From IMG/VR virus record IMGVR_UViG_3300034072_001406, positions 1-37,222 of that record: a DNA stretch of 37,222 bases; one strand, given 5' to 3'. Within the stretch, counting starts at the first letter, position 1. Each line of letters starts with the position of its first letter. Below the pieces are notes generated by a model that worked only from the letters and a program-made list of their open reading frames with translations, was not told the origin of the DNA and made no database searches. The position numbers and the translations under genes are program-made. Shown here one piece after another: positions 2,636 through 15,331 of this stretch. Origin of the DNA: a virus.

Positions 2636-3292
2636 TTACTGATTATAAAATTCTTTTAATAATATTGATTGTGATATTTCTTTGTCTGTTAAAGTTTCAA
2701 ATTTTATTAAAATAAATTCATCTCCATCACTTTTAAATATTTCAGTATTAATTTTTTTTATCATATTATCATCACCATTTTGATCACTATATAAACTATC
2801 TAAAAATGCTTTTTTATAATTTGCTTTAAATACTTGATCAATAACATACTCTATATTATCTATGTCTTTTTGCTGATAATTAATAAAAAAACTAATATCT
2901 ATTTTTACATTTTTATGATTTAAAAAAGGAATCATATCTTTATCTATTTGTTCTTTTATTTCGTTTCTATATTCTTTATATTTAGTATTAAAATATGCTA
3001 CTTTATCAACTTTATAATGAACTTCATTATAACCTAATATTTTTTTAACATTAAATTTAAAAACTTTTGAAATCATCTTGCAATCATTAAAATCGTCAGC
3101 GAATATTGATTCTTTTGCTACTTTTGAAATCTCTTTTAAATTTTTTCTTTCTAATGTTTTATTATATTCGAAAAATTCATTATCTCTTTCATCTTCTTCG
3201 AAAACTAATGTATCTAAATCTATTAAATTATTGATTTCCATTCTTGATAGTTTTAAAACTTCTATCGCTGACATATTTGAATTAAATTCCAT
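2636..3292 (-). CDS. Hypothetical protein, possible RusA-like resolvase
   Basis: Second gene of the rep operon (28-base spacing, AAAGGAG site), 218 aa. The N-terminal ~90 residues are acidic and unrecognised. The C-terminal half has the spacing of acidic residues seen in RusA Holliday-junction resolvases: KDIDN at 142-146, D152 and DDNMI at 174-178, preceded by a beta-strand-like VKIDISFFI. RusA enzymes use such Asp residues to bind Mg and cut branched DNA. The match is by motif only and overall similarity to the clearer RusA-like gene at 4778 is low. It could instead be an unrelated replication accessory protein. Confidence 0.5.
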   Translation of the reverse strand: MEFNSNMSAIEVLKLSRMEINNLIDLDTLVFEEDERDNEFFEYNKTLERKNLKEISKVAKESIFADDFNDCKMISKVFKFNVKKILGYNEVHYKVDKVAYFNTKYKEYRNEIKEQIDKDMIPFLNHKNVKIDISFFINYQQKDIDNIEYVIDQVFKANYKKAFLDSLYSDQNGDDNMIKKINTEIFKSDGDEFILIKFETLTDKEISQSILLKEFYNQ

Positions 3293-3319: not shown

Positions 3320-4315
3320 TTAAAACTTATTAGTGAATACATCATCTAAATCGTCATCTTGCTCTTCTTCTTTGATATAAAATTCTTCTTTTTCTTTTTC
3401 TATTTCATGAGAAAAATCTTCATCATAATCTTCTTTATTTTCTTCTTCTTTTTTAACTTCTGGTAAATGTTTTTTATTACTTACTTGTTTATTTTTTTCT
3501 GCTTCTTCTGCTATCTTTCTTATATTGATTTCTTTTGTTTTAATTTTGAAAGCAATAGTTTTCTTTAACTCTTTATCTTCTATACTATCAATTATAAAAC
3601 CTATTTTTTTTAATTCATTAATTGCTTGTCTTATATTATACACGAATTTTTTTTCTTCCATATTTTGACTTAAAAATCTTTCTTTTAATTTTTCAATACT
3701 AAATGTATTATATTCTCTTATATTATTAGAAACTATTAAAGTGTACATGATCTTACTGTAATCAAGTTTTAACTTGCTGTATATTTTTTTGTATTCTATA
3801 TTATAAATATTATTAGAATCTGCTTTCCAAAACATCTTATTAGAACTTGACATCTTTATCTTACATATGTTGTCATTTATTAAACCATAATCTAAAAGAC
3901 CACAAAAATAAGTAGTTTCATCTATATCAAAGACAACTGTTAATCTTCTAAATTTAATTAATGATTTAGCAAACTCTTCTTTTATATGTTTTCTATTATT
4001 TATTTGCTTATGATCTGGATCTACGAAATCATAAAACTCTTTCATATTAAATTCAAAACAATCATCTTTAATTTGATTAGATTTTAATGTAATGAAACAG
4101 TAAGCTGCAAAATCTGAGGAAACATTAAGGTTGTCTGTAATTATTTTTACATTTTTATAATAAGAAAAAGAAGGCAATTTGATTTCTTGTTTAATTTCTT
4201 TATTTTTTAAATTAAATATTGGTAATGTTAAAACTGATCTATAAATTGAAAAGAAATTATTATCTATAAAAACCTTTTTATTTACTTCTTCAATTTTAGT
4301 TACTTGTAATGCCAT
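3320..4315 (-). CDS. rep: Plasmid-type replication initiator (Rep_3-like)
   Basis: Probable initiator that binds iterons and opens an origin. The 331-aa protein has two winged-helix-like halves: residues about 30-150 (VSSDFAAYCFITLKSN, KSLIKFRRLTVVFDID) and about 165-265, where YSKLKLDYSKIMYTLIV, FSIEKLKERFL and FVYNIRQAINELKKIGFIID follow the Rep_3/RepE pattern. A very acidic tail (residues about 285-325) is extra. The ATG at 4327 lacks a ribosome site; ATG 4315 has GGAG 6 nt upstream and is chosen. Its own promoter and four iteron-like repeats lie just upstream, the usual autoregulated initiator/origin layout of plasmids. No other replication gene is visible. Confidence 0.75.
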   Translation of the reverse strand: MALQVTKIEEVNKKVFIDNNFFSIYRSVLTLPIFNLKNKEIKQEIKLPSFSYYKNVKIITDNLNVSSDFAAYCFITLKSNQIKDDCFEFNMKEFYDFVDPDHKQINNRKHIKEEFAKSLIKFRRLTVVFDIDETTYFCGLLDYGLINDNICKIKMSSSNKMFWKADSNNIYNIEYKKIYSKLKLDYSKIMYTLIVSNNIREYNTFSIEKLKERFLSQNMEEKKFVYNIRQAINELKKIGFIIDSIEDKELKKTIAFKIKTKEINIRKIAEEAEKNKQVSNKKHLPEVKKEEENKEDYDEDFSHEIEKEKEEFYIKEEEQDDDLDDVFTNKF

Positions 4316-4346
4316 TTTTTGCTCCATTTTTTTATCTTATATATTA

Positions 4347-4374
4347 ATAATAGCATATTAAAATACTAATGCAA
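4347..4374 (-). promoter_or_regulatory. rep promoter with conserved upstream box
   Basis: Minus strand TTGCAT (4374-4369), 16-bp spacer, TATTAT (4352-4347). Immediately upstream is TTTGTGAAACTATTG, identical over 15 bases to the box at the 8300 promoter. It drives rep and the 3292 gene, and iterons start 29 bp further upstream. Confidence 0.7.
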
Positions 4375-4402
4375 TAGTTTCACAAAGATTTTTATAAAAT
4401 TT

Positions 4403-4499
4403 ACTATAAACCGGAACTTATAGTTACATAAAAACTTTAAAATTACTATAAACCAGAACCTAAAACACTATATCCCGGAACCGAAAACTATATCAAAGC
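4403..4499 (+). repeat. Iteron-like repeats, array A
   Basis: Related direct repeats: ACTATAAACCGGAAC (4403), ACTATAAACCAGAACC (4445), ACTATATCCCGGAACCGAA (4467) and a truncated ACTATATC (4487). Two are 22 bp apart, two helical turns as in iteron origins. They lie upstream of rep and recur at 9680-9760 and nowhere else noticed. Confidence 0.75.
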
Positions 4500-4521
4500 T
4501 TAGTGCCATGCGGTTTTTAAT

Positions 4522-4667
4522 TCTAATAAGTATTTAATAAGTATGTAAACGAAATTACAAATCTAATTTTTATTTAAATTTTTAGTTATTTTTGATCTAT
4601 AAAATTTTTAACATGATGATTATATTTTTCTTGTTATGATGATGATGTGATGTTCTGATTATTATTT
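4522..4667 (+). repeat. 146-bp duplicated origin module, copy A
   Basis: Matches 9798-9943 without gaps and with four mismatches, in the same orientation. Weaker homology extends left to about 4498. It starts with two tandem TAATAAGTAT units (11-bp period), then an AT-rich core and an ATGATG-rich end. Confidence 0.93.
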
Positions 4668-4694
4668 ATTTTTATCTTATTACTTGCTTTTTAT

Positions 4695-4722
4695 TTTAAA
4701 ATTGTTATATCTATATTATAAT
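4695..4722 (+). promoter_or_regulatory. Possible promoter of the RusA-like/lysis operon
   Basis: TTTAAA (4695) and TATAAT (4717-4722) with a 16-bp spacer; a second TATAAT overlaps at 4722-4727. The -35 is poor, so the exact promoter is uncertain, but this is the only upstream gap of the operon. Confidence 0.4.
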
Positions 4723-4777
4723 ATAATAGAATGTTAAAGCATTTTGTGATAAATTAAATTAATAAAAGGAATTAAAA

Positions 4778-5308
4778 ATGATAAAAGAATATGATGATTA
4801 TTTAGTTTTATTTATACCATACATCGCTCCATCTTTAAATAAAATATTAAACGAATACTTTAAAGTTTGGAATAAAAGAATGGGAACATATCTTGATAGA
4901 ACTAAACAGTTTAGAGATAGATACATAGAAGAAACAAACATAATATTTAAAAATTCAGAAATAAAAAAAATAAATCAACCAATCTTCATCTCTTATTATC
5001 CAATTTTAGGATCAGAAAAACAAAACGAAAACGATAAAATGATAAAAAAATCGTATGATGTTGATAATTATATATATTGTTGTAAATGTATCACTGATGC
5101 TTTAAAAAACAAAGAAATATTTGAAGATGATTGTAATAAATACATTAAAAGTATATTCGTAAATGAATCTAATAACGAAAGAATATTAAAAACTTCGGGA
5201 ATGATCGTTATAATTGAAAAACAAAAAGAAAATAATTTTCCAGATCTTAAAAAACAAGAAAAAATAAAAGAAAAATTTTTAAATGATTTAATAAAAGGAC
5301 AAAATTGA
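4778..5308 (+). CDS. RusA-like Holliday junction resolvase
   Basis: Structure-specific endonuclease that would cut Holliday junctions or branched replication products before packaging. The 176-aa protein shows the family layout: a beta strand leading to SLNKILN, then W31-x-x-R34, a helix, and the catalytic acidic set D94-x-D96-N97, D107-A-L and E116-D117-D118 followed by YIKSIFVNE. The C-terminal ~40 residues form a charged tail. ATG 4778 follows AAAAGGAATT. It is the first gene of an operon whose next four genes overlap or nearly touch and encode lysis-type proteins. Family assignment by motif is fairly strong; activity is inferred. Confidence 0.78.
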   Translation: MIKEYDDYLVLFIPYIAPSLNKILNEYFKVWNKRMGTYLDRTKQFRDRYIEETNIIFKNSEIKKINQPIFISYYPILGSEKQNENDKMIKKSYDVDNYIYCCKCITDALKNKEIFEDDCNKYIKSIFVNESNNERILKTSGMIVIIEKQKENNFPDLKKQEKIKEKFLNDLIKGQN

Positions 5309-5316
5309 GGATAAAA

Positions 5317-5553
5317 ATGTTAAAAAAATTTACTAAACAATTAATTCAATACTTTATAATAGTTTGCACTTGTTCATTAACTGCATCTTATATGTATGAA
5401 AATAAAAATCCAGAAATAGCTTTAACAATTTTAGCAATTTATGGAACTATTTTAATTTTATTAATTTTTTCTGATGTAAAATCTATAAAAATAGGATCTT
5501 TTTTAGAATTAGAAAAACACGAACAAGAAAATAAAGAGGAGAATGATAAATGA
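5317..5553 (+). CDS. Putative holin (two membrane helices)
   Basis: A 78-aa protein with two predicted membrane spans, about residues 8-27 and 35-55, and a short charged C-terminus (LEKHEQENKEENDK): the layout of class II holins, which permeabilise the inner membrane at lysis. The ATG at 5317 follows GAGG at 6 nt and is preferred over an in-frame TTG at 5305. Its stop overlaps the next start (ATGA). Position directly before a spanin pair supports a lysis role. No family signature is recognisable, so another small membrane protein is possible. Confidence 0.6.
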   Translation: MLKKFTKQLIQYFIIVCTCSLTASYMYENKNPEIALTILAIYGTILILLIFSDVKSIKIGSFLELEKHEQENKEENDK

Positions 5554-5942
5554 TCAACTTATTTAATAACTTAACTACTAAAATTTTAACTATAATAGTG
5601 ATTATTTTAATTATTTTGGCTGGTTTTTTTTATTTATCAAATAAAAGTATTAAAAACGAATTAAACACTATAAAAACAACTAATAAAATGCTTGAAGAAA
5701 AGATTGAAAATCAAAATAAAAAAATAACACAATATATTGATTTAATAGATAAAAATATAAAAATTATAAAAGAATACACTGACAAAAATAAAGAAATAGA
5801 AAATAAATTAAACAATATTAATAATAAATTAGAAAAATATGATCTTAATAAGATATCTAAATCAAAACCAAAAATGTTAGAAAAAATTATTAATAATGGA
5901 ATTAATAAAGAGAAAAAAGAATTAATGGAGATTACAAAATGA
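5550..5942 (+). CDS. Putative inner-membrane spanin (Rz-like)
   Basis: A 130-aa protein with an N-terminal membrane anchor at about residues 9-29 and a long hydrophilic coiled coil (KNELNTIKTTNKMLEEKIENQNKKI and onward) that would cross the periplasm. This is the architecture of i-spanins, which fuse inner and outer membranes with a partner lipoprotein in the last step of Gram-negative lysis. It overlaps the upstream holin-like gene by 4 nt and the downstream lipoprotein gene by 4 nt. The call rests on topology and neighbours, since spanins share little sequence. Confidence 0.68.
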   Translation: MINLFNNLTTKILTIIVIILIILAGFFYLSNKSIKNELNTIKTTNKMLEEKIENQNKKITQYIDLIDKNIKIIKEYTDKNKEIENKLNNINNKLEKYDLNKISKSKPKMLEKIINNGINKEKKELMEITK

Positions 5943-6274
5943 TTAAAAATTTACTAAAAATAATTGCTTTAATTATTGTCGCTATACTTTCTTTTAAGTT
6001 GACTGGATGCTCTTCAAAGATAACTACACTAGAGACTACTCAAAAAGAATATAATGTTTTAATTCCTGAAGATCCACGCCCTATAAATTTAAAAGAAAAT
6101 AATTATATAGTCAATAATGAAATGTTATGTATAAATATCGAAGACTATAAAAAAGAAGTCTATAATTTTCAAGAATTAAAGAGATATATTGAGCAATTAA
6201 AAAATCAAAATATTGCGCTTAAAAAAATAATAAACGAAATAAAAAAAGGAGATCAAAATGGAGAAAATAAATAA
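5939..6274 (+). CDS. Putative outer-membrane spanin lipoprotein (Rz1-like)
   Basis: A 111-aa lipoprotein: basic start, hydrophobic residues 8-20 and lipobox LTGC with the lipidated cysteine at 24. The mature part has a Pro-containing stretch (LIPEDPRPINL), then a C-terminal helical segment (ELKRYIEQLKNQNIALKKI) recalling the Rz1-like pattern of long o-spanins. It follows the i-spanin with an ATGA overlap; GGAG lies before the start. It would sit in the outer membrane facing its partner. The presence of this pair is the main evidence for a Gram-negative host. Confidence 0.72.
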   Translation: MIKNLLKIIALIIVAILSFKLTGCSSKITTLETTQKEYNVLIPEDPRPINLKENNYIVNNEMLCINIEDYKKEVYNFQELKRYIEQLKNQNIALKKIINEIKKGDQNGENK

Positions 6275-6575
6275 AAATAATATTAAAGAAATCATTAAAA
6301 AAGTCAACATAATTTTAATAGTTTTCATATTATCGTTTTCATTATTTTTTAGCTTGTTTGTTTTTGCTAATAATCAAAATAAAATAGAAAACAATACTGT
6401 TAAAGTGAACAATGGTTTTAAAGTTGAAATAAAAGATGTGGTTATCGAAAATAAACTATATAGATATATAATTGTCTTCGAAAATGATGTTTTATTTTTA
6501 ATTAAACTATGCGATCATAGAATTACACATGAACAAGAAAAATCTTTATGTATGAAAGATAGAAAAATCATTTAA
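6258..6575 (+). CDS. Hypothetical exported or membrane-anchored protein
   Basis: Not recognised. The 105-aa protein has a Lys-rich start and one hydrophobic segment at about residues 18-37 ending FVFANN, which may be an uncleaved anchor or a signal peptide cut after FANN-like residues. The rest is a small, probably beta-rich domain (VKVNNGFKVEIKDVVIENKLYRYIIVFEN) with two cysteines (CDH, LC). It overlaps the o-spanin gene by 17 nt with AAGGAG before ATG 6258, so it belongs to the lysis operon. Its 3' end overlaps the convergent gene at 6568 by 8 bp. Confidence 0.6.
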   Translation: MEKINKNNIKEIIKKVNIILIVFILSFSLFFSLFVFANNQNKIENNTVKVNNGFKVEIKDVVIENKLYRYIIVFENDVLFLIKLCDHRITHEQEKSLCMKDRKII

Positions 6576-6960
6576 CTGGTCTTATTTCTGTATATCTTTG
6601 AAATAAAAGTTCATCTCCAAAATTAAAAGTGAAAATAACTTCGTCATCATTATTTAATTTGTCAACTAATATAAAAAGATAAGTGTAATTTTTTGTATTC
6701 TTTCTATTTTTATTTATCTTTTTATTATTGTGAGCGATATGCTGATTAGTATTAATTAGTATGTTTTTTAATTCGAAATATTTATCATATAACAAGTATT
6801 CAACTGAGTGATCTTTAAGTGTTTTCATTGTTAATTCATAATTACTTATTATAATCTTTGTTAATCTTAAATCTTCTACATATTTCATCAATCTTTCGAT
6901 ATCTTCTGGTTCAAAAGTGCATGTTATTTCTTTACTATCATCGAACTGGAAATTACTCAT
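6568..6960 (-). CDS. Hypothetical protein
   Basis: Not recognised. A 130-aa soluble protein with an acidic N-terminal part (FDDSKEITCTFEPEDIERLMKYVEDL), a central helical part, a basic Asn/Lys-rich linker (HNNKKINKNRKNTKN) and a C-terminal beta-like end (DEVIFTFNFGDELLFQRYTEIRPVK). The start ATG at 6960 overlaps the stop of a 41-aa gene by the ATGA arrangement and has AAAAGG at 7 nt. It is the last gene of a three-gene minus operon. Confidence 0.6.
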   Translation of the reverse strand: MSNFQFDDSKEITCTFEPEDIERLMKYVEDLRLTKIIISNYELTMKTLKDHSVEYLLYDKYFELKNILINTNQHIAHNNKKINKNRKNTKNYTYLFILVDKLNNDDEVIFTFNFGDELLFQRYTEIRPVK

Positions 6961-7082
6961 TTATTTACCTTTTTTATTTGTTTAATTCTTTTATTTATAT
7001 CAGCAATAAGCTTTTTTGTTTTTAACTTAACTATAAAGCATTTTAATTTGCTTAAAATAGTGTTACACATTAAATTTTTCAC
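6957..7082 (-). CDS. Small basic protein (41 aa), GTG start
   Basis: An open frame of 41 aa starts with GTG at 7082, preceded by GGGGGGAGAGAA, one of the strongest ribosome sites in the window. Its TGA stop overlaps the next gene's ATG (ATGA). The protein is strongly basic (many Lys, few acidic residues), begins MKNLMCNTILSKLKCF and has a helical Lys-rich C-terminus. Function unknown; nucleic-acid or membrane binding is possible. Ribosome site plus coupling make it a probable gene. Confidence 0.6.
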   Translation of the reverse strand: MKNLMCNTILSKLKCFIVKLKTKKLIADINKRIKQIKKVNK

Positions 7083-7095
7083 TTCTCTCCCCCCG

Positions 7096-7404
7096 TTACT
7101 CATTAAAATCACTAATTAGATCTATAATATGTGTAACCACTTCATCATCTATCTTTATATTATCAATTTCTTCATCATATTCTGATATTAATTCATAATA
7201 AACATCTTCAATTATTTTAGTTCTATTATAAACAACTTGATCAGTGTCTCTTTCATATTTTTTTATACAGTATTTTACAAGTTCAAAATAAGTCTTGATT
7301 ACTATCTCATTGTATACTGTTTTATATTCATTTTCTTCATAGAAATATACATTATTATTTTCTTCTAATATTGTATACTCATTTAATAAAAAATAATCTC
7401 TCAT
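7096..7404 (-). CDS. Hypothetical strongly acidic protein
   Basis: Not recognised. In 102 aa there are 26 Asp/Glu against 10 Lys/Arg, a net charge near -16, spread along a probably compact fold rich in Tyr and Val/Ile. Small acidic early phage proteins are sometimes DNA mimics that block restriction or CRISPR nucleases, but nothing beyond charge supports that here. The first gene of a minus operon, with its own promoter (7435-7462); the GAG-type ribosome site before ATG 7404 is weak. Confidence 0.6.
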   Translation of the reverse strand: MRDYFLLNEYTILEENNNVYFYEENEYKTVYNEIVIKTYFELVKYCIKKYERDTDQVVYNRTKIIEDVYYELISEYDEEIDNIKIDDEVVTHIIDLISDFNE

Positions 7405-7434
7405 ATTGCTCTCATTTTTTTGTTATCTATAATC

Positions 7435-7462
7435 ATTATAATATTTTTAAACTTTTTGTAAA
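7435..7462 (-). promoter_or_regulatory. Promoter of the 7404 minus operon
   Basis: Minus strand TTTACA (7462-7457), 16-bp spacer, TATAAT (7440-7435), about 30 bases before the gene. It is back to back with the plus promoter at 7470-7498, so the two probably interfere. Confidence 0.6.
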
Positions 7463-7469
7463 TATCTTA

Positions 7470-7498
7470 TTGATTTTTTTTAATAATATATATATAAT
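7470..7498 (+). promoter_or_regulatory. Promoter of the 7522 gene
   Basis: TTGATT (7470-7475), 17-bp spacer, TATAAT (7493-7498). It is 24 bases before ATG 7522. Confidence 0.55.
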
Positions 7499-7521
7499 TA
7501 CACAAAGAAAAGGAGAGTATT

Positions 7522-7734
7522 ATGAATTATAAAGAAGACAAGAATAAATTGATTTCAATATTACAAGAAAGCATATTTAAAGACGACGAAATAATTAAGA
7601 AATTGATAATAAAATTAGAATACAAAAAATCACAGAAAGCATTCGATAATTTTATAAATAAAACTAAAAAAGATAGTTTAAAAAGTTTAAGTTTAGTTAA
7701 TGCTTTCATATATACAGTATTCAATAAATTTTGA
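7522..7734 (+). CDS. Hypothetical small basic helical protein
   Basis: Not recognised. A 70-aa single-gene unit between a divergent promoter pair and a terminator. It is helical and Lys-rich (LISILQESIFKDDEIIKKLIIKLEYKKSQ) with a C-terminal hydrophobic segment LSLVNAFIYTVFNKF that is too short to call a membrane span with confidence. ATG 7522 follows AAAGGAGAG. A reverse-strand open frame over the same bases lacks a ribosome site and is a shadow. Confidence 0.6.
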   Translation: MNYKEDKNKLISILQESIFKDDEIIKKLIIKLEYKKSQKAFDNFINKTKKDSLKSLSLVNAFIYTVFNKF

Positions 7735-7738
7735 CAAC

Positions 7739-7759
7739 AAAAAACACTCTTAAAGAGTG
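7739..7759 (-). terminator. Terminator of the 7782-8300 gene
   Basis: CACTCT (7745-7750), TAA loop, AGAGTG (7754-7759). On the minus strand it is followed by six T. It may also weakly stop the convergent plus gene. Confidence 0.6.
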
Positions 7760-7781
7760 CTAATTGTTTGCTATCTATTAA

Positions 7782-8300
7782 TTAAGCATTCTTAATTGTG
7801 TTTTCTAATATTTTACGAATGCAAGCCATGTCTATTTCATGTAAATCGTAACCTTTTCTAACTTGTCTTATAACTAAATCATTTTTTATAAAGAAAAGTT
7901 CATCAGAATCTTCTGGATAAACGCTTATATGATCTTTATAAAGAGATTCAATTACTTCGTAAGCTGATTTGTTTTTATATTCTTCTAATATTATATTTTC
8001 ATACATAATTACAAAATCTTTCTTTTCATATTTAACTTTTCCATAACTATTAATTTTTAATAATGAAAAACTAATTTCTTCTTCTGCTGTTTTTGCTTCG
8101 TTAATAAAAATATTTAATTCTTTTTTAATTTCTTCTTTATCTTCTATATATATATAATCATAAAACTCATCTAAACTTGTATAAGTATCAATTATATGAT
8201 CAGCATCTTCCCAATCTGAAAAACTACCTCCGTTAAACATGATATTTTCATCTACTGCTTTTTTAAAAAAGTTTAAATCTAATTCAATTATTTGTTTCAT
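7782..8300 (-). CDS. Hypothetical acidic protein
   Basis: Not recognised. A 172-aa soluble protein, acidic in its N-terminal half (FSDWEDADHIIDTYTSLDEFYDYIYIEDKEE) with the look of an alpha/beta fold; the C-terminus is helical (ACIRKILENTIK). It is a single-gene unit. ATG 8300 has a good GGGAG site. Its promoter carries the same 15-bp upstream box as rep, so the two are probably co-regulated. It is transcribed divergently from the 8496 gene. Confidence 0.65.
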   Translation of the reverse strand: MKQIIELDLNFFKKAVDENIMFNGGSFSDWEDADHIIDTYTSLDEFYDYIYIEDKEEIKKELNIFINEAKTAEEEISFSLLKINSYGKVKYEKKDFVIMYENIILEEYKNKSAYEVIESLYKDHISVYPEDSDELFFIKNDLVIRQVRKGYDLHEIDMACIRKILENTIKNA

Positions 8301-8357
8301 TTTATTGCTCCCTATTTTTCGTTTACTTATATAGATAAATAATCTATCTATGATCTA

Positions 8358-8385
8358 ATAATAGCATATAAAAATAATAATTCAA
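8358..8385 (-). promoter_or_regulatory. Promoter of the 8300 gene with rep-type box
   Basis: Minus strand TTGAAT (8385-8380), 16-bp spacer, TATTAT (8363-8358), preceded by TTTGTGAAACTATTG (8397-8383), identical to the box before rep. The ATATGC just before the -10 is also shared with rep. Confidence 0.7.
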
Positions 8386-8412
8386 TAGTTTCACAAAAAT
8401 ATACTTTAACAG

Positions 8413-8440
8413 TTGACAATATTGATTTTAGTAGTAAAAT
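8413..8440 (+). promoter_or_regulatory. Promoter of the 8496 gene
   Basis: TTGACA (8413-8418), 16-bp spacer, TAAAAT (8435-8440); a TATAAT overlaps at 8440-8445 but would need a 21-bp spacer. It is divergent from the 8300 promoter. Confidence 0.6.
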
Positions 8441-8446
8441 ATAATC

Positions 8447-8465
8447 ATAAACTATTAAAGTTTAT
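8447..8465 (+). promoter_or_regulatory. Palindromic operator candidate
   Basis: ATAAACT-ATTAA-AGTTTAT, perfect 7-bp arms placed at the expected transcription start of the 8496 promoter. The position suits a repressor site. No cognate regulator is identified. Confidence 0.4.
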
Positions 8466-8495
8466 AGAAAACAAAATAAATAAAGGGAGCAAATT

Positions 8496-9038
8496 ATGGA
8501 AAATAAAATTGAGACATTTAACACAAGAATACTTAAAGATGAAAGTTTAGATTGTATAGTATTCAATAAGAAGATATTAAACACATTAGAGATCAGTGAC
8601 GCAATCATAGAGAATAATGGTTATATATATAAAACATCAACAAGAATAAAGATTGCAATCAGTCAGAACTGTTTTAATACAATAATTAATGACGATATAA
8701 TAATAAAAAGACATGAGAATAAGTTAACAGAAGGTTTTAGTTTAATAGAAGCTTTTAACGAAACAAACGAACAATTGATAATGACACCAAGAATTTATAA
8801 GAATTTCGATTTAACTTCTGGTTATATTTATATATTAAATGGTTCTTATATTGTTCACAAATTTAAGATAGTATTAAATAATAGTAAAAATGTTGTTGCT
8901 ATCAGAGTAAGCGATACAGTGAACGATGTAATAATTAAAGACTATGATAAATATGGAAACTTAATTGATACTTACGAATTAGCAAAAGATTACAAAAAGA
9001 AGTGTAAAGAAATGTATAATTATATTGAATTTATTTAA
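8496..9038 (+). CDS. Hypothetical protein
   Basis: Not recognised. A 180-aa protein, probably beta-rich in the middle (NLTSGYIYILNGSYIVHKFKIVLN-like strands) with a helical C-terminus (YELAKDYKKKCKEMYNYIEF). It is an isolated unit with a near-consensus promoter, a possible operator at the start point, a GGGAG ribosome site and a strong terminator. That independent, strong and apparently controlled expression is the most informative thing about it; an early host-takeover or defence-related role is possible but unproven. Confidence 0.65.
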   Translation: MENKIETFNTRILKDESLDCIVFNKKILNTLEISDAIIENNGYIYKTSTRIKIAISQNCFNTIINDDIIIKRHENKLTEGFSLIEAFNETNEQLIMTPRIYKNFDLTSGYIYILNGSYIVHKFKIVLNNSKNVVAIRVSDTVNDVIIKDYDKYGNLIDTYELAKDYKKKCKEMYNYIEFI

Positions 9039-9058
9039 TACATAATAGTAAGCATTAG

Positions 9059-9079
9059 ACACCCTTTAAGGGTGTTTTT
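9059..9079 (+). terminator. Intrinsic terminator after the 8496 gene
   Basis: ACACCCT (9059-9065), TTA loop, AGGGTGT (9069-9075) and five T. A clean terminator 20 bases after the stop. Confidence 0.85.
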
Positions 9080-9123
9080 GCTATCTATAATTTTTAGGTG
9101 GCTATATCTTTCAATCGTCTATA

Positions 9124-9339
9124 TTAAACTTGTCTACAATACATCTTATAGTTTTTTAATACATATTCGTAAGCATATACTTGAACATTACTTGAAGTTA
9201 TGAATATCATCTCTTTATTCTTCTCTTCTTCTTTCTTCTTTATATTTGTATCATTGTTAAATACATAATTATAAATGTCTTTAATATTCTCGCTTTCTGT
9301 TAGTTTTAAGCCGTCTTTACTCTTTAATGTGTATATCAT
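9124..9339 (-). CDS. Hypothetical small protein inside inverted repeats
   Basis: Not recognised. 71 aa. The N-terminal segment MIYTLKSKDGLKLTESENIKDIYNYVFNND resembles a small beta-hairpin plus helix, followed by a charged stretch (KKKEEEKNKE) and a Tyr-rich end. The ribosome site is weak (AAGAGA). Its promoter at 9372-9400 and the gene are enclosed by the inverted repeats 9096-9119 and 9407-9431, with the left arm starting 4 bases past the stop. It could be a cargo gene. Confidence 0.5.
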   Translation of the reverse strand: MIYTLKSKDGLKLTESENIKDIYNYVFNNDTNIKKKEEEKNKEMIFITSSNVQVYAYEYVLKNYKMYCRQV

Positions 9340-9371
9340 TGAATGATCTCTTTTATTGTCCTTTATTTATC

Positions 9372-9400
9372 ATTATAGTGTATTATATTATAGTTTTCAA
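9372..9400 (-). promoter_or_regulatory. Promoter of the 9339 gene
   Basis: Minus strand TTGAAA (9400-9395), 17-bp spacer, TATAAT (9377-9372), inside the inverted repeats. Confidence 0.6.
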
Positions 9401-9431
9401 ATTATTGACGACTTTAAGAATTTAGCCACCT

Positions 9432-9670
9432 GAATATTTTGAATACTGATTGATTTGATACCTTTATTTTTATTATCAATTTATTGTGTCTTTATATAGT
9501 TTTCTTTATGTATTTTATTATGATGCCAATATTTTGACTAATTTTTTAATAGTGTTAGGTGTCAAATTATTGATTGCTTATGGTTTTAGCCGTCAAAAAT
9601 CAGGCATCAAGAACTTTGAAAACTTTTTCGGGCGGCGGGCAAGGGGGCGGATGATATACTTTTTAATGAT
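9432..9670. other. Structured non-coding region with G-rich tract
   Basis: No convincing gene. It holds two long-range inverted repeats that interleave: 9453-9462 with 9558-9567 (10 bp, one G-T) and 9521-9538 with 9592-9609 (7+7 bp around a 4-base mismatch). It also has an imperfect direct copy of the cassette's right arm (9562-9594), and a tract at 9629-9650 with runs GGG, GG, GGG, GGGGG and GG, the most GC-rich segment of the window. Confidence 0.5.
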
Positions 9671-9679
9671 TTTATAATT

Positions 9680-9760
9680 ACTATAAACCAGAACCATGAT
9701 CATTTTTTTAGTTAAAAATTACTATATCCCGGAACCGAAACTACTATATCCCGGAACCGA
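9680..9760 (+). repeat. Iteron-like repeats, array B
   Basis: ACTATAAACCAGAACC (9680), ACTATATCCCGGAACCGAA (9721) and ACTATATCCCGGAACCGA (9743), the last two 22 bp apart. These are the same units and order as array A near rep. Confidence 0.78.
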
Positions 9761-9797
9761 CATCGAACTTAACGCCTAGTCTCATGCACTTCTTCGA

Positions 9798-9943
9798 TCT
9801 AATAAGTATTTAATAAGTATGTAAGCGAAATTACAAATCTAATTTTTATTTAAATTTTTAGTTATTTTTGATCTATAAAATTTTTAACATGATGATCATG
9901 TTTTTCTTGTTATGATCATGATGTGATGTTCTGATTATTATTT
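9798..9943 (+). repeat. 146-bp duplicated origin module, copy B
   Basis: 97% identical to 4522-4667, gap-free, same orientation, with weaker homology from about 9774. Three of the four differences fall in the ATGATG-rich end, where this copy has ATGATCAT palindromes. Confidence 0.93.
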
Positions 9944-10166
9944 TATTTGTTTTATTTATGTTAAAGTTTAGAGCGTGATGTTAAAATTTTAATTTTATAA
10001 CTGAATAAATTTATATCAGAAATAAATGAGATAAAAGTTTGATACTTGCACGATCTATCTTATTTAATAAAAAACCATTAAAACTATTGATTATTATGCT
10101 TAATATACTATAATGTATAATATAGATCATTGATTTATATTTAATAAATAAAAAAAAGGAGTAAAA
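9944..10166. other. Non-coding remainder before the early operon
   Basis: AT-rich, no open frame with a ribosome site. It contains the 10087 promoter near its right end; nothing else is recognised. Confidence 0.5.
10087..10114 (+). promoter_or_regulatory. Promoter of the 10167 operon
   Basis: TTGATT (10087-10092), 16-bp spacer ending ATATAC, TATAAT (10109-10114). The -35 is preceded by AAAACTA, giving AAACTATTG as at the rep and 8300 promoters. Confidence 0.68.
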
Positions 10167-10730
10167 ATGGAAATATTAACAATAATAATTCTTTTAGTTA
10201 TTTTATTTAATTGTATTTTTATAATATATAATTTAAAATCAGAATTAAAAGAAGTTAAAAAAATATGTAAAAAATCTATATTAAGTTATGAAGAAGAAAA
10301 TAAAAATATACAATTAGAAAATTTTAATTTAAATAAAATAAATTATAAACTAATTGATATAATTGATAATTATATTAAAAAACAAGGTGTAAAAAAAATA
10401 AATTACATACATCAGATTAAAGATTTTAATAATAATATAATAGATTCTACTTCTATAATTAAATATTATACAGAAATAGATTATATTAATATTACGGATT
10501 ATATTAAAGAAATAGAAAAACAAGGTGCAGATTTAGATTCTTATTTTAATAATATAAATAATTTTAAAGAAGAATTTGATTTTAAAGAATATTATGTAAA
10601 AGAAGATGAAAATATTAAAAAATATGGATTTCCAATTCAAGAAGAATTAATGGTTTTAAAAGTTTTAAAAGAAGGAGAACATATTTTAAAAAAAGAACAA
10701 ATTAATAAATTTAAAAATATAGGAGAATAA
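10167..10730 (+). CDS. Hypothetical membrane-anchored protein with YGFPI C-terminal motif
   Basis: Not recognised. A 187-aa protein: one N-terminal membrane helix (residues about 3-22), a coiled-coil-like stretch, an acidic middle and a C-terminal ~36-residue motif, KYGFPIQEELMVLKVL then GEHILKKEQINK and a final NIGE. The same motif ends the next gene's product, so the two are partial paralogs or share a binding module. Third codon positions are nearly all A or T, more extreme than in the 11036 gene. ATG 10167 follows AAAAGGAG. Confidence 0.62.
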   Translation: MEILTIIILLVILFNCIFIIYNLKSELKEVKKICKKSILSYEEENKNIQLENFNLNKINYKLIDIIDNYIKKQGVKKINYIHQIKDFNNNIIDSTSIIKYYTEIDYINITDYIKEIEKQGADLDSYFNNINNFKEEFDFKEYYVKEDENIKKYGFPIQEELMVLKVLKEGEHILKKEQINKFKNIGE

Positions 10731-10731
10731 A

Positions 10732-11046
10732 ATGGATAATAATGAAAATTTAAATTATTCTAAATATATTTATATAGAAGAAAATGAAAAAGATAAATTT
10801 ATAAAAAAAGAGTTTAATGAAGAGAATTATATTAAAACATTATCAGAAAATGAAAATTTAATAATATTTTCTGGTTTTACGGTAGATAAAATAACAGCAG
10901 AAATTGAATTTAAATTAAATAGTAATATTATACAATATGGATTTCCAATTACTGAAAAATTAAAACCTTTAAAAATTGGAGAAAAAGTTTTAACAAAAGA
11001 ACAAATTAATAAAAATAAACATATAGGAGAACAAGATGACGAATAA
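10732..11046 (+). CDS. Hypothetical protein sharing YGFPI C-terminal motif
   Basis: Not recognised. A 104-aa acidic soluble protein starting 1 nt after the previous stop, with AGGAG before ATG. Residues about 68-100 (QYGFPITEKLKPLKI, GEKVLTKEQINK, HIGE) repeat the C-terminus of the upstream protein, while the N-terminal parts differ. It lacks a membrane segment. It overlaps the 11036 gene by 11 nt. An antisense frame here is a shadow. Confidence 0.62.
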   Translation: MDNNENLNYSKYIYIEENEKDKFIKKEFNEENYIKTLSENENLIIFSGFTVDKITAEIEFKLNSNIIQYGFPITEKLKPLKIGEKVLTKEQINKNKHIGEQDDE

Positions 11047-12332: not shown

Positions 12333-12354
12333 GCATAAAATTTAATAAAAATGC

Positions 12355-12382
12355 TTGTAATATCAAATGAATATACTATAAT
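12355..12382 (+). promoter_or_regulatory. Early-type promoter module, copy 1
   Basis: TTGTAA, 16-bp spacer, TATAAT. The 40 bases 12345-12384 match 13202-13241 with one mismatch. It drives the 12433 operon. Confidence 0.75.
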
Positions 12383-12432
12383 ATTAACATAAGTTGAATA
12401 AAACTTATATAAAAAAAATAAAGGAGTAAAAA

Positions 12433-12753
12433 ATGGATAATCAAGAAAAAATATTAAAAGAAATATTAAAAACTTTAAAAGATAATGAATTAATAATAAA
12501 TACTCATTTAACACTTATAAAAGTTTTAGAAGAAAAAAATAAAGAATTAAAAGAAAGAAATTATATTTCAAAAGAAAATGATCTTTTATTTGTTGATTTA
12601 TATGTATATTTAAGAAAATGGGAAAAAGATAATAATATAAAAACAAATCAAGAAAACATTTATGTTGATAATTTTGTAGATAAATTTTTAATATTAGTTA
12701 ATGCATATATAAAAGAAAATAATAATAAAAATGGTTTAGTAAATGATAAATAA
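12433..12753 (+). CDS. Hypothetical helical protein
   Basis: Not recognised. A 106-aa, highly charged protein, mostly predicted helix with a coiled-coil-like N-terminal half (ILKEILKTLKDNELIINTHLTLIKVLEEKNKELKERN). Codons are almost purely NNA/NNT. AAAGGAG precedes ATG 12433. It overlaps the next gene by 11 nt in a two-gene operon with its own promoter and terminator. Confidence 0.6.
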   Translation: MDNQEKILKEILKTLKDNELIINTHLTLIKVLEEKNKELKERNYISKENDLLFVDLYVYLRKWEKDNNIKTNQENIYVDNFVDKFLILVNAYIKENNNKNGLVNDK

Positions 12754-13159
12754 ACAACATAGAATATTATTATGTCATGATAATATATTAAATTCAAAAT
12801 ATTTTACATTACTTAAATGCCAAGATTTAAATGCAGTAAATTATTTTTATAATATAGTTGAAAATTTTTTTATTGATAGTGTATTAAAAAATTATGAATT
12901 ATTATCAGAATGTGATTCAAAACCAGATTTAAAAGATTTTCCTTTTTATGATTATTATTTAAATGATGAAAATTATGAAATTTTTAAAATAATTAATTAC
13001 GATAATATAATAGAAACATTTAATAATATAAAATGGTTTTATGAAATTTATCAAGATTTTGAATATACATTAAATGATTTTTATATTATTTTAGATTACA
13101 TTCAAGAAAGAAGTATTTACTTAAATTTAAAACAAATAAAAAAATATAGAAGGATATAA
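12743..13159 (+). CDS. Hypothetical acidic protein
   Basis: Not recognised. A 138-aa, Tyr/Asn/Asp-rich, acidic soluble protein. The ATG at 12743 lies within the end of the previous gene; no strong ribosome site is seen, so coupled translation is likely. A terminator follows 5 bases after the stop. Confidence 0.58.
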   Translation: MINKQHRILLCHDNILNSKYFTLLKCQDLNAVNYFYNIVENFFIDSVLKNYELLSECDSKPDLKDFPFYDYYLNDENYEIFKIINYDNIIETFNNIKWFYEIYQDFEYTLNDFYIILDYIQERSIYLNLKQIKKYRRI

Positions 13160-13187: not shown

Positions 13188-13211
13188 ATGTAATTATTTT
13201 TATAAAAATGC

Positions 13212-13239
13212 TTGTAATATCAAATAAATATACTATAAT
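13212..13239 (+). promoter_or_regulatory. Early-type promoter module, copy 2
   Basis: TTGTAA, 16-bp spacer, TATAAT. It is nearly identical to the module at 12345-12384 and drives the 13274 gene cluster. Confidence 0.75.
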
Positions 13240-13273
13240 ATATATAAGATAAACAAAAAAGGAGCAAATTAAA

Positions 13274-13592: not shown

Positions 13593-14213
13593 ATGAAAAA
13601 TTATTCAACTTACTATGTTAAAAACAATATGATCACTATTTTAAATATAGAAACCAAAGATGATGGTGCCTATATATTCATAGATAGAGAATTATCATAT
13701 TTTCTACCAAACGAAGAAGATATGGAGGATCACTTAATTGAAAAAGGTTTCATGTCATTCGATGACAATGATAATATAAAACTTGAAGAGTGTGATAACT
13801 GTTTTAAAGATCTCGAAATAATAGTTTACGATTTAAAGAATAAGAATAAATCAAATAATTGTAATGTATTTTGTTATAATTGTTTTATAGAAAGTTGTAA
13901 ATATAAATTAATTAAAGAAAGCTTGATAATGCTCACTATAATGAATTTAGATAAATTAAAAGAAAACAATGAAATAGTGAGCGAAGATTTATGCGACATA
14001 TTAGTAAAGATTACTACTTTAAAGTTAGCAACAGTTAAGAAAGCAATAAATGAGTTTTCAAATAAATATGGTTTAACTTATAACGCTTACAATATTTATA
14101 ATGTTAAAAAAATAATTAATAACTATGAGAAAGTTAACGAGATTTTATTTAGTAAGCTAAAAGAATATGAAATCAATACAATGTTAGACCTCGAAGAATT
14201 TTGGAGACAATAA
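13593..14213 (+). CDS. Putative zinc-binding protein
   Basis: Not recognised by family. The 206-aa protein holds two cysteine pairs, C67-x2-C70 and C94-x2-C97, with C90 and C102 nearby, a spacing that suits a treble-clef or ribbon zinc site. Phage proteins of this type often bind nucleic acids or host enzymes. The C-terminal half is helical (KITTLKLATVKKAINEFSNKYG). GAGAG precedes ATG 13593. The final base is shared with the next gene's start (TAATG). Confidence 0.6.
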   Translation: MKNYSTYYVKNNMITILNIETKDDGAYIFIDRELSYFLPNEEDMEDHLIEKGFMSFDDNDNIKLEECDNCFKDLEIIVYDLKNKNKSNNCNVFCYNCFIESCKYKLIKESLIMLTIMNLDKLKENNEIVSEDLCDILVKITTLKLATVKKAINEFSNKYGLTYNAYNIYNVKKIINNYEKVNEILFSKLKEYEINTMLDLEEFWRQ

Positions 14214-14719
14214 TGAAAAATAAAAAAAATAAATTTAATATAACATATTGTAAATATACAAGTTTAGAACAAATTTATTATAAAAATCTAAATACTTATG
14301 ATAAAATAAAAGATAAAAAAGTATCAATAAGTAAATATAATAAATTAAAAGATAAAAAAGTATCAATAAGTAAATTAATGAAATATTTTTTATTTTCTAA
14401 ATATATAAAAGAATTTAATTATAATTATATAACAGAAGAAGAGTTTAATTTAATTTACATTATTAATTATGAAGATTTTATAAAATTACATAATCGTATT
14501 AATAAAATAGTTAAATTAAATAACTGTAAAGAAATTAATTATAAAAGTTTTAAAAATCATTATATGAAAATAATAAAAGAAACTGAAAATTATTATAAAA
14601 GAAGTAATAAAAATTATATAGATTATTTTTTAAATAAAAATATAGATGAAAAATCTTTTATAGATAATGAAGAAGAAAATTTTAATAATATATTAAAAAG
14701 TATAAAATTGAAAATATAA
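14213..14719 (+). CDS. Hypothetical protein with internal tandem repeat
   Basis: Not recognised. A 168-aa, very basic, Lys/Asn/Tyr-rich protein. The ATG at 14213 follows GGAG at 7 nt and is preferred over an in-frame TTG at 14201. It contains a recent in-frame duplication with a 39-base period: KDKKVSISK occurs twice, 13 residues apart. Almost every codon ends in A or T. Confidence 0.55.
   Translation: MKNKKNKFNITYCKYTSLEQIYYKNLNTYDKIKDKKVSISKYNKLKDKKVSISKLMKYFLFSKYIKEFNYNYITEEEFNLIYIINYEDFIKLHNRINKIVKLNNCKEINYKSFKNHYMKIIKETENYYKRSNKNYIDYFLNKNIDEKSFIDNEEENFNNILKSIKLKI
14307..14375 (+). repeat. 39-bp-period tandem duplication within gene
   Basis: 30 identical bases at 14307-14336 and 14346-14375, keeping the reading frame (13 codons). 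It suggests slippage or recent duplication. Confidence 0.9.
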
Positions 14720-14756: not shown

Positions 14757-15248
14757 TTGAGTAATATAATATTTAAAGATCAACATGAAAATATTTATTT
14801 AAATTTAATAATAGATAAAGAAGTAAAATATAAAGTTAGTAAATTAATAGAATTAAAATTATTAAAATTTAGAGAATATATTTATAAAGAAAATTTTGAT
14901 TATTTTAATGATAGATATCATACAGAACAACCCAATAAAGATATTAAAGTAATTAATGATTATGAAATAAATATTTTTAAATTTAATAAATATAAATCAG
15001 ATGCAATAATATATGAAGAATCAACTAAAAGTTTTTATAAAGTTGAATTATTAATAAATATTACAGATTTATATATAGAAGATCAATTAAAAGAAGTTTA
15101 TATGGATATAAAAAATAAAAATTATGATGTATTTTATAACAATAAAATAAAAGATTTAAAAATAAGCGATATAAATAATGATCAATTATTGTATTTATTA
15201 GATTATATTTTAGAAATTGAGATAATAAAAACAATAAAAATAAATTAA
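14757..15248 (+). CDS. Hypothetical protein, TTG start
   Basis: Not recognised. A 163-aa, acidic, Tyr/Ile-rich soluble protein. The TTG start is well supported: AAGGAG lies 6 nt upstream and no ATG is suitably placed. Near-total NNA/NNT codon use. It is the last gene of its cluster before the promoter at 15268. An antisense frame over its end is a shadow. Confidence 0.58.
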   Translation: MSNIIFKDQHENIYLNLIIDKEVKYKVSKLIELKLLKFREYIYKENFDYFNDRYHTEQPNKDIKVINDYEINIFKFNKYKSDAIIYEESTKSFYKVELLINITDLYIEDQLKEVYMDIKNKNYDVFYNNKIKDLKISDINNDQLLYLLDYILEIEIIKTIKIN

Positions 15249-15267
15249 AAAAAATACACAAAAAAAC

Positions 15268-15295
15268 TTGTAATATATAATAAATATACTATAAT
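15268..15295 (+). promoter_or_regulatory. Early-type promoter module, copy 3
   Basis: TTGTAA, 16-bp spacer ending AAATATAC, TATAAT. It shares the -35, -10 and spacer end with copies 1 and 2. Confidence 0.72.
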
Positions 15296-15331
15296 ATTTT
15301 ATATAGAGAACAAAAATTTAGAGTATACAAA

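Follow-up and report, generated by a model that had tools for sequence, protein, structure and literature searches.

Given that the genome studied here carries two near-identical modules of direct repeats and AT-rich DNA, one of them beside a gene for a plasmid-type replication initiator, it is reasonable to ask what the second module does. The window, meaning the whole stretch of DNA that was analyzed, corresponds to one circular virus record with a length of 37,222 bases (IMGVR_UViG_3300034072_001406). Repeats of 127 bp at both ends, together with a terminase reading frame that runs across the join, indicate that the genome is circular, with a size of about 37.1 kb. The virus is a circular siphophage of bacteria, and no close relatives of it were found in the collections searched. 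Its genome is 23% GC with a coding fraction of 90%, and no intergenic regions are longer than the two (827 and 450 bp) in which the modules, herein called A and B, are located. The features discussed below are listed in Table 1.

Table 1. Coordinates of features at the two modules and in adjoining genes of the window.
Feature	Position	Strand	Remarks
RusA-like Holliday-junction resolvase gene	2636..3292	-	Pfam PF05866 above cut-off; phrog_140; downstream of rep, same direction
rep, replication initiator gene	3320..4327	-	335 aa; distantly related to P1 RepA/RepFIB (RepB-family) initiators
Probable rep promoter region	4345..4389	-	91% copy at 8356-8400, before leftward gene 7782-8300
Module A iterons	4403..4488	+	At 4403, 4445, 4467 (weight-matrix scan)
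Degenerate fourth iteron, module A	4489		ACTATATC
Module A AT-rich block	4522..4667	not assigned	146 bp, 84% AT; probable unwinding element
Second RusA-like resolvase gene	4778..5308	+	Opposite side of module A; RusA-type phage matches, DxDN...DD motif
Module B iterons	9680..9760	+	At 9680, 9721, 9743 (weight-matrix scan)
Module B block	9798..9943	not assigned	146 bp, 4 mismatches vs module A
Inverted repeat	9887..9924	not assigned	ACATG-ATGATCAT...ATGATCAT-G-ATGT; well formed in B but not in A

The iteron ACTATANNCCRGAAC occurs exactly six times in the genome, always on the plus strand. When both strands were scanned with a weight matrix, scores at these six sites ranged from 24 to 34 bits and no other site exceeded 9.6 bits, which bears out the original prediction that such repeats are confined to two arrays. 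The 22-bp phase proposed for the arrays holds for iterons 2 and 3; the first iteron stands apart in both modules, such that the first-to-second spacing is 42 bp in module A and 41 bp in module B, and the second-to-third spacing is 22 bp in both. Phasing of iterons matters (PMC5043065), and in module A the phased direct repeats lie beside and precede an initiator gene, as is the case for iteron-type theta origins.

Each array is followed by a spacer of identical length and then by an AT-rich block. The blocks align without gaps and with four mismatches (at 4549, 4621, 4624, and 4641 in module A coordinates), exactly as had been claimed, and the full gapless match between the modules proves to be longer (237 bp, 88% identity, 4436-4672 versus 9712-9948). 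Outside the matched segments, the sequences of A and B are unrelated. Within them, identity is distributed unevenly: 82% across iterons 2 and 3, 58% across the 33-bp spacer, and 97% across the block. The contrast between 4 mismatches in the 146 positions of the block and 14 in the 33 positions of the equal-length spacer is strong (Fisher p = 7e-9). This mosaic suggests selection rather than a recent copy, since length and phase are kept while the spacer sequence is not, a pattern expected from selection on protein-binding and melting elements. The proposal that either selection or gene conversion keeps the copies alike therefore comes to favor selection, and gene conversion restricted to the block is possible as well.

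The same mosaic bears on whether module B might have arisen by duplication not very long ago, or be left over from fusion or recombination with an element that shared the origin, and be held similar to module A by homologous recombination while having no role of its own. The 97% identity of the blocks, which includes one exact run of 71 bp, is compatible with this reading, as are promoter-type repeats elsewhere, which reveal that this genome duplicates short regulatory DNA. However, a recent copy should not concentrate its differences in the spacer while iterons and spacing are retained, and no rearrangement breaks are visible at the module edges. Furthermore, the interval between the modules contains Rz-like spanin genes and a resolvase gene, which are not obvious cargo, and the presence of spanin genes makes a simple cargo insertion less evident. 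We therefore regard a functionless duplicate as rather improbable.

It is far less probable still that the second copy was created by the assembler. The sequence comes from a metagenomic record and one assembly, and no independent relative is at hand for comparison. However, the copies differ at defined positions, and mis-assembly is made unlikely by unrelated flanks and a longest exact repeat of 71 bp. The 127-bp terminal overlap also suggests that the assembly words were about that length, which exceeds the shared run.

Short direct repeats are present within the blocks; in block A, two 11-mers (TAATAAGTAT) and two 12-mers of the AATTTTTAGTTA type occur in tandem. Related Rep proteins with two winged-helix domains require short repeats of this sort for sequence-specific binding of single-stranded DNA, and one strand is bound (PMC4081077). 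An AT-rich region with short repeats adjoins the iterons, as in iteron-type theta origins, although it is only moderately unusual for this AT-rich genome: the duplex instability of the blocks falls in the 3-12% tail when measured in windows of 30-100 bp. DnaA boxes, which are common though not universal in iteron origins, were not found in module A or B. The GC-skew check that had been recommended was uninformative, as strand-corrected third-position skew gave no clear origin signal. A coding function for the block was rejected because stop codons occur in all six frames, and a structured RNA was considered; the block matched no Rfam family, and its predicted RNA fold was not unusual.

The gene beside module A had been described as Rep_3-like. 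Its product has no match in Pfam, NCBIfam, or PHROGs, and a direct search with the curated Rep_3 model PF01051 was also negative, so the family label did not survive in that form. A more distant relationship is nevertheless apparent. Among 72,556 plasmids searched at a loose threshold, initiators of the RepB/RepFIB type were the best matches, with E values as low as 0.004, and those of the listed plasmid matches that carry an annotation were replication initiators. The 11 phage matches obtained at the loose threshold comprised RepA proteins of the P1, P7, and SJ1 type along with a single protein that lacks annotation and can be aligned to these. A profile built from eight such RepA-type proteins matched the window's Rep with an E value of 5e-13, compared to 0.025 or worse for shuffled controls; because the eight members were picked for resemblance to the query, this value is somewhat optimistic, but the gap to the controls is large. 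The hhalign comparison (probability 96, E 4e-9, residues 57-252) likewise supports homology across both winged-helix regions. A single-sequence structure model of Rep (pLDDT 34) was too poor for a fold search. Judged by its profile, Rep belongs with the P1 RepA/RepFIB initiators, at scores below the curated cut-offs.

The copy of the probable rep promoter found ahead of another leftward gene suggests shared regulation. Separately, three rightward promoter-like sequences that are nearly identical to one another form a second family, at 12347-12403, 13204-13260, and 15260-15316. A tandem repeat at 14297-14384 (39-bp unit, 2.3 copies) lies within an ORF at 14201-14719. Genes at 10167-11046, 12433-13159, and 14757-15248 have very low third-position G+C (e.g., 5 of about 188 codons) and are adjacent to genes with about 20%, which suggests different sources.

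Taken together, the anatomy gives good support to the view that one initiator serves two full origin-type modules. The modules share three iterons each on the same strand, a near-identical layout, and an equal distance from iterons to block, all of which speak for two origins. As had been noted, there is no initiator gene at module B, which is a rep-less copy of the entire cis-acting unit situated at the start of a long rightward gene block. It is quite likely that both modules are origin-type units recognized by Rep. The idea of two origins thus holds in its anatomical part, and its functional part is a prediction from sequence. Our preferred explanation, which we advance tentatively, is that both modules are Rep-dependent origins, with module B serving as a second origin and/or as a Rep-bound fork barrier. 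Counting against it are the lack of a DnaA box, the moderate instability of the blocks, the fact that no helicase, loader, or recombinase gene was recognized in the window, unlike in SPP1, and the fact that no relative was found for comparison.

For such a system, we envision that Rep would bind both iteron arrays and melt the AT-rich block beside each of them. Module A would serve as the main theta origin and double as the site of rep autoregulation, whereas module B would act as a second or later origin and/or as a Rep-bound barrier that stalls forks arriving from A. A stalled fork could then be processed with the help of RusA-like resolvases, and replication would shift to a recombination-dependent mode that generates concatemers for packaging. 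Genes for two such enzymes flank rep and module A. For the product of the gene at 4778-5308, the phage matches listed at the loose cut-off are RusA-type resolvases without exception, and the DxDN...DD residues can be aligned. Of these ideas, the fork-barrier switch, which we propose by analogy, is clearly less likely than the recognition of both modules by Rep as origin-type units and should be considered doubtful.

Several features distinguish module B from module A. The inverted repeat in the module B block is predicted to fold as DNA with an energy of -7.7 kcal/mol (z -2.3), compared to -1.4 kcal/mol (z +0.3) for its counterpart in A, and five GATC sites are present in module B versus one in module A. 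These distinctions mean that the copies could be regulated differently, and together with a circular genome and a plasmid-type initiator they would suit a division of labor in which one origin provides plasmid-like maintenance and the other lytic growth. The original prediction had raised a switch of this kind. However, no partition, integrase, or repressor gene was recognized among the window's proteins, most of whose early members are without a match, and the sole integrase-labeled match was partial (E 0.0025) and to a spanin-like protein. Moreover, both modules would answer to one Rep, and iteron origins also serve phage growth, as in lambda (PMC5043065). The switch between amplification and maintenance therefore finds no support here, and we consider a division of labor improbable.

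Other observations were made near module B. Three of the four ATGATCAT palindromes in the genome lie within this module (9696, 9892, and 9912), and none lies in module A. Just ahead of the module, at 9629-9650, is a G-rich tract, CGGGCGGCGGGCAAGGGGGCGG, in which 20 of 22 positions are G or C. This is by far the most GC-rich 22 bp of the window, and it has no exact match in viral contigs. The tract may function in priming, in an R-loop, or as a cohesive end. Further upstream (9082-9445), an inverted repeat with AGGTGGCTA cores surrounds an ORF of 71 aa (9124-9339, minus strand), an arrangement that may represent a small mobile cassette.

Searches of sequence collections uncovered no relative with either module. 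Viral contigs and genomes were queried with Rep, portal, and terminase by 8-mer-based methods, and iteron pairs, the 11-mer repeats, and the G-rich tract were sought as exact matches; none of these searches revealed a related module. The exact iteron search returned a single match, in a 322-kb contig, which is about the chance expectation for 17 bases. A terminase profile identified loci with about 30% identity, of which 80 were viral and 43 bacterial; no Rep relative was present in the viral loci, and none was detected in the five genomes of bacterial loci that were scanned. When 369 genomes from one bacterial class and 296 genomes from another phylum were searched, one marginal match was obtained. 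A 35-bp similarity to Citrobacter plasmids was dismissed as chance, there being no rep gene nearby.

Comparison with known systems helps to distinguish among the remaining explanations. Phage P1 (oriR with incC, plus incA, and RepA) and its relative Cronobacter phage JK004 have an initiator distantly related to the window's Rep and a second iteron array elsewhere, beyond the initiator gene. Module A, read along rep, keeps the P1 order of AT-rich block, iterons, promoter, and rep; the annotated P1 record has AT/Dam sites, incC iterons, promoter, and repA. By this precedent, module B might be a copy-control locus only, as is incA, that titrates Rep or handcuffs with module A and does not itself fire, and membership of Rep in the same family speaks for this reading. 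However, the second array of P1 directly follows repA and consists of iterons only, as repeat analysis gave no AT-rich copy there, whereas module B is a complete unit whose 97% identical AT-rich block, at fixed spacing, is unneeded for titration. The iteron sequences of P1 and JK004 are also unlike those of the window, in which no DnaA box was found. The titration or handcuffing locus suggested earlier is thus kept as a rival and becomes less likely, and we would assign copy control alone only a small share of the probability.

R6K-type plasmids offer a second parallel for two Rep-dependent origins, in that several origins (alpha, beta, and gamma) operate under one initiator system. There, the alpha and beta origins lie within long inverted repeats and depend on additional proteins (PMC3332091), whereas the modules described here are two near-equal direct copies.

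The closest parallel is Bacillus phage SPP1, with oriL, oriR, and the initiator gp38. SPP1 has two origins 12-13 kb apart, each composed of direct repeats and an AT-rich unwinding element, of which one resides inside the initiator gene and the other is intergenic, and the phage encodes a RusA-type resolvase (PMC6316719, PMC3485210). A switch from theta replication to concatemers (theta-to-sigma), with the second origin as a roadblock, is no more than a proposal even for SPP1, in which the resolvase is not essential (PMC3485210, PMC6316719). Our phage is likewise a siphophage with one initiator and two separate units that combine repeats with an AT-rich element. The initiator gene adjoins one of these units, the other occupies a long intergenic region, and the phage encodes RusA-type resolvases (two RusA-like genes). 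In contrast, its units are 5.3 kb apart, and its initiator resembles P1 RepA/RepFIB rather than gp38. Because the initiator family differs and no gp39- or gp40-type genes of the initiator-loader-helicase set were found among the window's proteins, we judge by analogy that the system is SPP1 oriL/oriR-like in layout, and its best match in working, and is not a member of that type. One unlikely extension is that an SPP1-like two-origin switch evolved independently from a plasmid initiator, wherein one RepA-type protein would fire module A and, when bound at module B, would block forks, so that recombination and a RusA-type resolvase turn circle replication into the synthesis of concatemers. The switch from circle to concatemer in circular phages has been well argued in few phages. 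If the proposal is true, two near-identical origin modules paired with an unrelated, plasmid-type initiator would constitute a case independent of SPP1, and the compact, well-separated modules provide a directly testable system.
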